A stretch of 34,647 nt of DNA from assembly GCA_040756435.1 (NCBI GenBank), contig JBFLZD010000040.1, forward strand, positions 1 through 34,647. The letters are read 5' to 3'. Below, one piece after another: positions 6,070 through 34,647 of the stretch (within the stretch, counting starts at the first letter, position 1; the number at the start of each line of letters is the position of its first letter). The notes beneath the pieces are model-generated. The model saw only the letters and a program-made list of their open reading frames with translations. It did not search any database and had not been told where the DNA came from. A program made the translations under genes and the position numbers. The DNA is from Spirochaetota bacterium (GTDB lineage Bacteria; Spirochaetota; UBA4802; UB4802).

Positions 6070-6310
6070 AAGTCATCCTGGGCTTGATTCAGATTCTATG
6101 AAGGTGGGGTGTAGATTCCGGATCAGGTCCGGAATGACGACATGGGATGTTATCCTGAACCTTGGGCTGAATTTATTTCTGGATTGATTCAGGATCGTTG
6201 ACGGTGTAGTGTAGATTCCGGATCAGCTCTGGAATGACAGCAAGGGATGTCATCCTGATCTCCGTCCTGTATTTATTTCAGGATCTTGGCATACTAGGAC
6301 GGGGATTCCG
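6070..6310. repeat. REP-like palindromic repeats between ileS and lspA
   Basis: A sequence beginning TGTAGATTCCGGATCAG occurs at 6110 and again exactly 100 bp later at 6210, each followed by GGAATGAC, GGGATGT and ATCCTGA. Within each copy ATTCCGGA can pair with TCCGGAAT (6114-6138) or a mismatched version of it (6214-6238), forming a hairpin. Partial copies of the flanking arms (TCATCCTG, TTGATTCAGGATC) lie at 6072, 6184 and 6250-6287. This type of element, built on GATTCCGG and CCGGAATGAC, is a dispersed palindromic repeat in many bacterial genomes. It may act as a weak terminator or mRNA-stabilising structure downstream of ileS. Nothing coding is seen in 6027-6389. Confidence 0.75.
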
Positions 6311-10576: not shown

Positions 10577-10794
10577 ATATTTACACCGTTTGTTATTGAA
10601 TTATGGAAATGGAATGCAATGTTTCTTTAGTTTACAGAATGGCATGCATGGGTTTCTTTTTCAAGATATTTTTAAAGACCATTTACGCACCTTCTTTTGT
10701 CCAGACTATAAGTTTAATGGAAAATGTACACTTACCATTTGTCAATTACACCTGTGGTTTTATGCATAACCAATACCGTATGTATTTTTTTCCT

Positions 10795-10994
10795 CACGCA
10801 GAGTTCGCTGAGAGAACAAAGAGTCTCATGAGATTGTAAAGCTTTTCTCTTACTCCTTTTCTCCATATACCCTGTGTTCTCTATGTGTTGCTTCATTTTG
10901 CATCACACAAAGTTCGCTAAGAGAACACAGAGTCTCATGAGAGTTGGAAAATTTCTCCTTTCTATCCTTTTTTCAGCGTTCTCTGCGTGAAAAT
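10795..10994. repeat. Two hairpin-type repeat units (CGCAGAG...CTCTGCG family)
   Basis: Unit 1 begins CACGCAGAGTTCGCTGAGAG (10795) and unit 2 ACACAAAGTTCGCTAAGAG (about 10907); both continue GAACA(A/C)AGAGTCTCATGAGA. Each is followed about 60 bp later by a rough inverted counterpart (TGTGTTCTCTATGTGTTG near 10872 and GCGTTCTCTGCGTG at 10976-10989), so each unit could fold into a long imperfect hairpin. Repeats of this GCAGAG/CTCTGCG type are dispersed in many bacterial genomes. A 78-codon frame over this area (10603-10839) simply reads through the repeat and I do not regard it as a gene. The rest of the 10577-11086 gap shows nothing else. Confidence 0.65.
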
Positions 10995-11086
10995 CTTTTT
11001 ATTACTATCTTCAGCCTATAAATACCTTGCAATTTGTAACTATTGATTTCACACTGTCCACACAGTTGTACGCTAATATATCATTT

Positions 11087-11803
11087 ATGAATAATCCTTT
11101 ACTACATTTTCTGTGTATTCACTACACAACCATATCACCACAAGTCAAAGAATATCTTTTTTCATTACTTTCAGATACTGAAAAACACAAGTGTAATTCA
11201 TTTCAATCTGAGATCAAAAAGTCTGAATTTTTAGTATCCAGGTGTTCATTGAAAGCACTGGGAATACTTTCAGGCTTTGATATACCAAACTATAATCCCA
11301 CCACACCAATCGTGTCGGCTAATGATCAAACAGCGTATGTATCGCTTTCACATACGCAGAATGCAGTTGCCGTATCGTTATTTCATACTCCTCACGGTAT
11401 TGACATTGAACCATGCAAGCGTCATGTAGCGTATCGCAACACTATTATAAAGCGCTATTTTGCACCATGTGAGCAAAAATTTATTAATCATCTGCCATGG
11501 GGGAAAACAAGGCGCTTTTTACACATATGGACCCTTAAAGAAGCAATTGCCAAATTACAAAAACTATCGCTTACACAAGCTTTACTGTATGATACCTTTA
11601 CAAATACCGACAAATTATTTTTAACAAATTTTTTGGTAGGGAAGAACTATATATGTGGCGTTGCAGTGGGCGATAGTTATTGTCAAGAAGTCACCATCCG
11701 CATATATACCTTGAAAGATAATGACCTTGCTGTATTTCTCACTGGATGTGGGCGATACCGGATTCGAACCAGTGACCTCCTGCATGTGAGGCAGGCGCTC
11801 TAA
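11087..11803 (+). CDS. 4'-phosphopantetheinyl transferase, Sfp type
   Basis: These enzymes move phosphopantetheine from CoA to a serine of carrier proteins in fatty-acid, polyketide or peptide synthesis. The magnesium-binding motif GIDIEP (about 104-109) and the motif WTLKEAIAKL (about 148-157) are both present, with YVSLSHT before them, as in the Sfp/EntD/AcpT superfamily. I take the ATG at 11087 (238 residues); a TTG 60 bp upstream (11027) is in frame, and neither has a strong ribosome site. The last 18 codons (from 11749) are the antisense strand of the tRNA-Val gene, giving the tail GRYRIRTSDLLHVRQAL. The native C-terminus may therefore have been lost or extended. No carrier protein or synthase lies nearby. 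Confidence 0.85.
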   Translation: MNNPLLHFLCIHYTTISPQVKEYLFSLLSDTEKHKCNSFQSEIKKSEFLVSRCSLKALGILSGFDIPNYNPTTPIVSANDQTAYVSLSHTQNAVAVSLFHTPHGIDIEPCKRHVAYRNTIIKRYFAPCEQKFINHLPWGKTRRFLHIWTLKEAIAKLQKLSLTQALLYDTFTNTDKLFLTNFLVGKNYICGVAVGDSYCQEVTIRIYTLKDNDLAVFLTGCGRYRIRTSDLLHVRQAL

Positions 11804-11822
11804 CCTGCTGAGCTAATCGCCC
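11749..11822 (-). tRNA. tRNA-Val (anticodon CAC)
   Basis: On the minus strand a full cloverleaf is present: acceptor GGGCGAT pairs with ATCGCCC, the D arm is GCTCAGCAGGTTAGAGC, the anticodon stem CCTGC/GCAGG closes the loop CTCACAT, and the T arm is ACTGG-TTCGAAT-CCGGT. The anticodon CAC reads GUG (valine). The discriminator base is A, and CCA is not encoded. The 3' two thirds of the gene lie antisense to the end of the phosphopantetheinyl transferase gene. Confidence 0.97.
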
Positions 11823-12835: not shown

Positions 12836-12985
12836 GGTTACCTATTTCTCATTAATGTACAACACTTGCATTGCAATCTAATGTATATAGTACTATTGTA
12901 CTATACTTTATAAGAATATCAAGACAAAATAACAAATAATACTATGAGAATGCTATTAGTATATTTATCATCTTTTTTTTACTAA

Positions 12986-13062
12986 TTATTCCTAAATGTG
13001 TAAATTTGAACAAAATATAAAATAGTGTATACCGCCGCCGAAGTCGGCGGGGGTATACACTA
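12986..13062 (+). repeat. Dispersed element with GC-rich hairpin, copy 1
   Basis: The element begins TTATTCCTAAATGTG, passes through AAATTTGAAC and AAAATATAAAATA, and ends in a strong hairpin: TAGTGTATACC (13023-13033) pairs with GGTATACACTA (13052-13062) around an inner GCCGCCG/CGGCGG stem. An inverted second copy lies at 28681-28755. No ORF is inside. It sits in the 343-bp gap between the toxin-antitoxin pair and marR. Confidence 0.8.
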
Positions 13063-13117
13063 GTATTCATTATGAAATTTATTAAGGAATTATTACTGAT
13101 CTTTTTTTAAAATATTC

Positions 13118-13156
13118 TTGACTTTATTACGTATACGTATTATTTGTATACGTAAT
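13118..13156 (+). promoter_or_regulatory. marR promoter with palindromic operator
   Basis: A perfect inverted repeat, ATTACGTATAC (13126-13136) and GTATACGTAAT (13146-13156), is separated by 9 bp. It lies just after a -35-like TTGACT (13118-13123) and covers the position of the -10 (TATTTG, 13141-13146). The MarR start is 23 bp downstream. This is the expected layout for an autorepressing MarR-family operator. Confidence 0.75.
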
Positions 13157-13178
13157 AGTATATTGTAAAAGGATTACT

Positions 13179-28548: not shown

Positions 28549-28680
28549 CAATAATTCTTTAGATTTTTTTTAATTTTTTTAACTTCAATTTTTAGTGAAT
28601 AATGTAATTTTTTTTAAAATGTCCCGCTTCCCATAATTTTTGGGAATATGATCGTATAATAAAAATTTAATAATGAATAT

Positions 28681-28755
28681 AGTGTACACCGCCGCCGCAG
28701 GCGGCTGTGTACATTATTTTATACTTTATTCAAATTTCCACATTTAGGAATAAAT
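28681..28755 (-). repeat. Dispersed element with GC-rich hairpin, copy 2 (inverted)
   Basis: Read on the minus strand, this segment begins TATTCCTAAATGTGGAAATT, continues AAGTATAAAATAATGTACAC and ends with a GC-rich hairpin (GCCGCC/GGCGGC around GCA, flanked by GTGTACAC and TGTGTACA). It is an inverted copy of 12986-13062, with the A/T half well conserved and the hairpin preserved by compensating changes. It sits between the tetR operon promoter and the double-RHH-like gene. Confidence 0.8.
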
Positions 28756-28835
28756 AGTGAAAGACCTCATATTCTACATCCAAAAATTAATATATAAAAC
28801 CCCATTCTAAAATTCCCCAAAGTGGAAATTTATTG

Positions 28836-34243: not shown

Positions 34244-34445
34244 AAGTTCATACCTCTAAAAAAAAAATTTATTTCTTCTATAAAAGATAGTGTATAAGGC
34301 TCCTTTCCCTATAAAGTCGTAATCCTATTTTTACAATATATCCTTTTTACTAATAAAACTTCAACAACTTTACTATTTTTTTCCCCTTAATAGTTCATAA
34401 AAAATCACTAATAATTCCTTAAAAATTTCATAAAGAATAAAGGGG

Positions 34446-34478
34446 CCGTCTCAAAACAAACTATGGACGGTTTTTTTT
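34446..34478 (+). terminator. Terminator-like hairpin at the IS end
   Basis: CCGTC at 34446-34450 can pair with GACGG (34466-34470), followed by eight T residues. The stem is short, but the T-run gives it the look of a rho-independent terminator for transcription entering the IS from outside. Confidence 0.4.
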
Positions 34479-34532
34479 ATTTTAAGTACTTGATACTGAA
34501 AAAAATTAAAAAATCCCATCTACTACTCATTT

Positions 34533-34647
34533 TCATGCAGGAATTTTCATCATATTATGGGCTAAACTCAATAATCCCCATTCAATTTTCACTTTATCAA
34601 GCCCACGTAATAGAAAGCGTTTAAAATTTCTGTTCCACTTGATATGC
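34533..34647 (-). CDS. Transposase C-terminus (IS1182-like), partial
   Basis: A frame open from the window edge reads HIKWNRNFKRFLLRGL, then DKVKIEWGLLSLAHNMMKIP and ends at a TGA (34533-34535). The pattern R-F-L-L-R-G-L-x-K-V followed by E-W-G-L-L-x-L-A-H-N is the C-terminal signature of DDE transposases of the IS1182 group. Only the last 37 residues are in the window, so whether the enzyme is intact cannot be judged. It reads toward the IS end at 34442. Confidence 0.75.
   Translation of the reverse strand, partial: HIKWNRNFKRFLLRGLDKVKIEWGLLSLAHNMMKIPA

Follow-up and report, generated by a model that had tools for sequence, protein, structure and literature searches.

The dispersed repeat of the window, by which is meant the whole 34,647-nt stretch of spirochaete DNA analysed here, is an IS4-family MITE present in high copy number. 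The best reading of it, to which we give a probability of about 0.9, is that of an IS4-type MITE moved in trans whose GC-rich central hairpin serves as a landing pad for IS1182-type elements. The element is short (~120 bp), palindromic, dispersed and without coding capacity, has imperfect terminal repeats, is bordered by a 9-bp target duplication, and its ends are common to an autonomous element. An earlier note, made by reading the window alone, had suggested a small non-autonomous element or else an RNA/protein recognition hairpin. The former suggestion is borne out: the element is repeated many times, has terminal repeats and 9-bp target duplications, and has an autonomous relative in the IS4 family whose ends match.

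Copies of the MITE in the window

The window holds two copies in inverted orientation and the right half of a third (Table 1). Copy 1, the ends of which were set from the 9-bp duplications seen across the family, consists of a left arm, a GC-rich hairpin in the centre and a right arm that ends in TTAAGGAATTATTACTG, and ATCTTTTTTT is present on both of its flanks. Copy 2 lacks roughly 18 bp at the end of its right arm, and the remainder aligns to copy 1. The inverted pair pointed out in the earlier note is real: the two copies form 74-nt arms that are 84% complementary. Folding of the whole elements as single-stranded DNA gives z = -7.7 for copy 1 and -5.5 for copy 2, with no shuffle as good. 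The third copy breaks off abruptly into GGGGCCGTCTCAAAAC..., which belongs to the terminus of an IS1182-family element. The transposase C-terminus of this element (PF13751, E 7.8e-7; NF033551, E 7.8e-8) is encoded on the minus strand and runs to the contig end, and the junction type seen at 34442 recurs on other contig ends. The earlier note had placed the first element at 12986-13062 and had counted two copies; the location and both copies stand, while the right arm of copy 1, and with it the true extent of the element, and the half copy had been overlooked.

Table 1. Features of the MITE copies in the window
Feature	Position	Strand	Description
Left target-site duplication, copy 1	12970..12979	+	ATCTTTTTT plus one slippage T; matches 13099-13108
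Complete MITE copy 1	12980..13098	+	119 bp, left to right end; aligned with 29 other genomic copies
Central GC-rich hairpin, copy 1	13023..13062	+	DNA fold -19.8 kcal/mol, z -8.4; family covariation
Right target-site duplication, copy 1	13099..13108	+	Read directly in the sequence
MITE copy 2	28661..28759	-	Right end lost; alignment and sequence
Central hairpin, copy 2	28680..28716	-	Apex GCA; DNA fold
Third MITE copy, right half	34406..34441	-	Interrupted at centre; end-motif match with 1 mismatch, and sequence
IS1182-family element end inside centre of third copy	34442..34647	-	Transposase C-terminus 34533-34646; contig ends within element

Copy number and target-site duplications

With copy 1 as the query, 40 places above the E 1e-20 threshold were found in the source genome (G000, a draft Spirochaetota assembly of 3,609,771 bases in 126 contigs), the other 39 being 80-90% identical over about 90-150 bp. 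Searches with the end motifs gave 71 + 72 matches for the right end and 44 + 30 for the left, and the reversed controls gave 23 and 0. Clustering of these ends yields 117 MITE elements or fragments, 48 of which carry both ends. Two of these 48 are about 90 bp in length, 30 are 110-129 bp and 16 are 250-309 bp. These counts are lower bounds, since many contigs end inside a MITE hairpin or an IS1182 copy (e.g. C6, C20, C24, C32, C35, C42, C47, C79 and C93), and the same breaks account for the absence of a full IS1182 element from the assembly.

The 9 bases on the two flanks are identical in 31 of 42 copies tested, and 8 or 9 of the 9 match in 37. Exact flank repeats of other lengths were seen 0-1 times among the 42 copies, and pairing of left and right flanks from different copies, used as a control, gave no 9/9 match. 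The duplicated sites are mainly A/T. Thus both further copies, the absence of which the earlier note would have counted against its proposal, and the target-site duplications it had suggested mapping are present. There were no matches to the MITE end or to the hairpin core in viral contigs, and none to the end in GTDB contigs, from which the source genome is possibly absent.

Related MITEs that have this type of ends, the hairpin and 9-bp duplications, whether exact or at 8/9, are found in genomes G003, G023, G039 and G041, and a copy with a decayed hairpin is found in G036.

An autonomous relative of the IS4 family

A search for the PF01609 transposase domain gave no match in the source genome, and there is no intact IS4-family transposase in its assembly. 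The same search in relatives led to a partner element in G023, a genome of the same order. This element is 1232 bp in length, reads AAATTAATT / CACTGTTAATTCCTAAAC ... GTTAAGGAATTAATAGTG / AAATTAATT, and has MITE-type ends, a perfect 9-bp duplication and a single open reading frame of 371 aa. The predicted protein scores 163 bits against the NCBIfam IS4 model (IS4_1, NF033592; cut-off 115), matches PF01609 with E 1.5e-24, and carries YRERWNIEVVFYWIK at position 281, i.e. Y(2)R(3)E(6)K, the YREK signature of the IS4 family. The DDE transposase with YREK, a duplication within the ~8-13 bp range and the one reading frame are those of the IS4 family. By its size, CA ends and duplication length, the element appears closest to the published IS4Sa subgroup. 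It is not filed there because the subgroup's ends are listed with a T at position 9 (CA------T; PMC2266710); the element has the CA, but its position 9 is A.

Similarity between the MITE and the autonomous element is confined to the ~18-bp ends. A protein search found related transposase pieces in four of four genomes of the same genus. G004 has a near-complete transposase copy, 57% identical, with the right end GGTTAAGGAATTAATGGTG, and G001 has an internally deleted copy with the left end CACCAATTATTACTAAAC and the right end as in G004. The source genome has only a stop-ridden transposase relic, on contig C47, where the terminus GGTTAAGGAATTAACAGTA is still present. Long elements bounded by MITE ends proved to be chance pairs only at the loci examined. 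Two other candidates for the autonomous partner were rejected: locus L257, where there is no transposase, and the IS1182 element at the window edge, which has half a MITE beside it and is placed inside the MITE by its flanks.

An IS4-family transposase acting in trans would bind and cut the two short imperfect terminal repeats of the MITE, and cut-and-paste insertion into AT-rich intergenic DNA would create the 9-bp target duplication. In the source genome the supplier of this transposase appears to have been reduced to the relic, and therefore the MITE family is probably static now, or is served by an unassembled or lost copy.

Pairing in the central hairpin

The 19-pair stem of the hairpin is 93.6% paired across 30 aligned copies. 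Five stem pairs, in nine cells, are changed on both sides, and none of 500 shuffles reaches these values. Most of the double changes fall in the basal GTGTACA arms, and changes in the GC core are mostly single and unpaired. The observation that the hairpin arms differ and that each keeps its own pairing, made from two copies in the earlier note, holds family-wide, and the compensatory changes it named as a check were found. It had also read selection for structure into this pattern; the covariation is there and may reflect selection, but templated quasi-palindrome correction would also keep arms matched. The stem pairing may be kept because it is helpful to mobility or to use of the hairpin as a target.

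The apex occurs in both orientations among the copies (GAA in 18, TTC in 7). C-GAA-G is the GNA triloop of extra-stable DNA mini-hairpins. Half of the apices other than GAA are also GNA (17/34, in G033, G041 and G000), a count inflated by shared descent.

Two MITEs, L060 (C35:24431-24520) and L307 (C74:6361-6450), have no core and show a single AGTGTACACT where other copies have GTGTACAC-core-GTGTACAC. This is as expected from slippage deletion of the hairpin between its arms, or from a pre-hairpin state. A reading of the GTGTACAC arms round the core as an 8-bp target duplication was dropped because the arms of other families are complementary and are not direct repeats.

Replacement of the hairpin by IS1182-type elements

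The 250-309-bp class consists of MITEs with an insert of about 160 bp, the ends of which, GGGGTGTCCCAAAAGACACC / ...GACGGCCCC, are those of an IS1182-family element. Copies of the full IS1182-type element are found in the same MITE position at many contig ends. By coordinates, 31 of 78 IS1182-type ends are near a MITE end; two of these (C35:24551 and C63:316) were removed after the loci were read, as they are adjacent to a MITE rather than inside it. Thus 29 of 78 ends are inside a MITE, all of them at its centre, where 0.3 would be expected by area. The GC core is gone in every composite that has two flanks (25/25; 21 aligned automatically and 4 read by eye). The stem lengths retained on the two sides, which were read by hand, correlate (r 0.71, permutation p 3e-4). 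Inserts are found in both orientations and form 12 junction classes, and elsewhere in the genome they often split short palindromes (ATGTATG/CATACAT, TATAC/GTATA). N- and C-terminal pieces of the IS1182 transposase are found at contig ends only, with E values of 1e-10 to 5e-4, below the NF033551 cut-off; every IS1182 copy is cut by contig ends, and the transposase was scored as pieces.

IS1272 and TnSha1 of the IS1182 family target inverted repeats, and the stem-loop is lost without target duplication (PMC5678879, PMC4923244). The composites likewise have an insertion at an inverted repeat and have lost the stem-loop, and the IS1182-type element appears to work the IS1272 way here. The GC-rich hairpin would then be a landing pad for a second transposon, at which the IS1182-family element, and likewise the non-autonomous ~160-bp form derived from it, would remove the stem-loop and insert in its stead, in either orientation. 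Since a composite may sometimes have moved whole, there may be fewer replacement events than copies. It can also be noted that the ~160-bp insert (L061, L104, L108 and similar loci) carries a GTCATTGCGAGGAACGAAGTGACGAAGCAATC motif that is itself repeated; some inserts have extra units and reach ~300 bp.

The hairpin core in other elements

The hairpin is found, with at most one mismatch, in 12 of 148 relatives, with a maximum of 92 in G039, and control matches were 0 in all. The exact 23-mer is present in 107 stretches of GTDB contigs that come from few genomes, i.e. three spirochaete MAGs, the Phycisphaerae genome RS_12_20, and singletons. It lies in the middle of four or more elements whose ends are unrelated, and the complementary basal stem that carries it is a different one in each; these are the IS4-type MITEs, the TAGACTTGTTGCAA element, the TAACTATTCAGCA element and a REPIN-like Phycisphaerae element. 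Besides the MITE of the window, at least three unrelated palindromic families, from Spirochaetota and Planctomycetota, bear the core. Nearly every core hairpin in a survey of the relatives' loci was itself a search anchor, so that survey carried no information.

Given the many genomes scanned, the match across phyla could be coincidental, but chance is a harder explanation for three unrelated families in one order. Perhaps the 23-nt hairpin CCCCGCCGCC-GAA-GGCGGCGGGG forms a discrete module able to pass from one palindromic element to another, unrelated one; this idea is speculative and we consider it rather unlikely. No element split by the two halves of the core was found. The core sequence was not found in the literature searched, and a published intrastrand-triplex motif is a different one. 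The exact core also occurs twice in a very AT-rich patescibacterial genome, Candidatus Campbellbacteria (L139, L201), without palindromic flanks and with no obvious MITE.

Genomic context

None of 40 elements is inside an open reading frame of 90 aa or more. The MITE sites are found between divergent genes in 21 of 39 cases, between tandem genes in 17 and between convergent genes in one; the element-free intergenic bases are 28% divergent, 48% tandem and 24% convergent, a comparison based on crude gene calling and 45 control gaps only. Both copies had been described in the earlier note as lying upstream of regulator genes. This is correct for copy 1, which is beside a MarR gene (PF01047); for the gene downstream of copy 2 no Pfam match was found, and a TetR regulator gene is on the other side of this copy. 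The position upstream of regulators appears to reflect a preference of the family as a whole for AT-rich intergenic sites upstream of genes, and the association with regulator genes looks incidental.

Other features of the window are separate from the MITE. A 14-pair inverted repeat (TTATTACGTATAC...GTATACGTAATAG) at 13124-13158, just upstream of marR and outside the MITE, is a likely MarR operator. A second kind of intergenic repeat, of the GATTCCGGATCAGGTCCGGAATGAC type, is present at 6081-6280 between the IleRS gene and lspA as two tandem 100-bp copies that are 78% alike. At 10787-10963 a CACGCAGAGTTCGCTGAGAGAACA repeat forms two 68-bp direct copies, 76% alike and 109 bp apart. In the region 11027-11822, a phosphopantetheinyl-transferase-like open reading frame (11027-11803, plus strand) overlaps a tRNA gene on the opposite strand (11749-11822, minus strand); probably the last residues of the reading frame are not real, or the two genes do overlap.

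Alternative explanations

A regulatory RNA or protein-binding hairpin, selected at regulator promoters and with the spread of its flanks secondary, would account for the stem covariation and for the bias to divergent and tandem upstream regions. Such a gene-regulatory device, the other suggestion of the earlier note, is not supported: a search of Rfam with the element gave no match, a terminator scan scored no terminator-like site at the copy 1 hairpin, unpaired changes accumulate in the GC core, and the neighbouring genes are diverse. Moreover, the hairpin is gone at about 40% of centres, those with detected IS1182-type inserts, and the MITE is not lost. We regard a regulatory origin as very unlikely; the hairpin is recognised in another sense, as the target that IS1182-type elements replace. 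Hardly credible is a REP/REPIN-type element with an HUH (TnpA-REP) transposase that recognises the hairpin. The repeated GC-rich hairpin with its conserved GNA apex does recall these elements, as does the occurrence of the same core in the REPIN-like Phycisphaerae element, but the 9-bp target duplications, absent from REPs, contradict movement of the whole element in this manner, and the terminal repeats are common with a DDE IS4-family element.

The remaining two alternatives concern parts of the process. The 250-309-bp composites and the IS1182 copies might all go back to a single ancestral composite, or a small number of them, moved as units by the MITE ends, in which case the hairpin would not be a recurrent target. 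The composites carry their own outer 9-bp duplications, still intact, so at least some possibly moved whole; yet common descent of all of them is improbable given the two insert orientations, the 12 junction classes, the several insert subtypes, the full-length IS1182 copies at the same position and the inserts elsewhere that also split palindromes. A possibility of more weight, though short of probable, is that the matching arms come from templated quasi-palindrome correction during replication and not from structural selection. The two apex orientations would fit, and the coreless copies resemble slippage between the GTGTACAC arms; however, the core, which should be easiest to correct, has many uncorrected mismatches, and double changes are found in the basal arms.

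Relation to known systems and significance

The autonomous relative resembles IS4-family elements, IS4Sa being nearest, in its CA ends, 9-bp duplication, single YREK reading frame and 1232-bp length, whereas the window element is non-coding, 119 bp long and has a GC hairpin mid-element (PMC2266710). With RUP and the Correia/NEMIS MITEs it has in common a 100-200 bp size, intergenic location, palindromic sequence, about 100 copies, terminal repeats shared with an IS, and target duplication. RUP is IS630-linked and has a TA target (PMC2229807), but the window MITE is IS4-linked, has a 9-bp duplication, and its shared GC hairpin core is recurrently replaced. The IS1182-type insertions are similar to those of IS1272 and TnSha1 in their inverted-repeat targets, stem-loop loss and both orientations (PMC5678879, PMC4923244). 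They differ in that they repeatedly hit the hairpin of another mobile element, that a ~160-bp non-autonomous derivative inserts as well, and that the host is a spirochaete. A repeated, GC-rich intergenic hairpin is also a property of REP/REPIN sequences (PMC3116915, PMC2817692), but the window MITE has 9-bp duplications and DDE-type ends, and no HUH transposase is implied. MITEs and stem-loop-replacing IS1182 elements are already known separately; the open-access papers searched describe no case in which a MITE hairpin is a recurrent landing pad, replaced some 30 times within a single genome both by an IS and by the miniature derived from it.

About 30 hairpin replacements in near-identical sequence within one genome permit a statistical reading of the rules of structure-directed transposition, i.e. 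where the stem is cut, how symmetrically, and which ends are used. The occurrence of one exact GC hairpin in unrelated mobile palindromes poses a puzzle. If the core is indeed a shared module, the 23-mer would represent a minimal element of the stem-loop-replacing kind, or else would have spread by conversion between hairpins. The findings also suggest that the hairpins of MITEs offer a second transposon a safe place to land and thereby keep it from entering genes.
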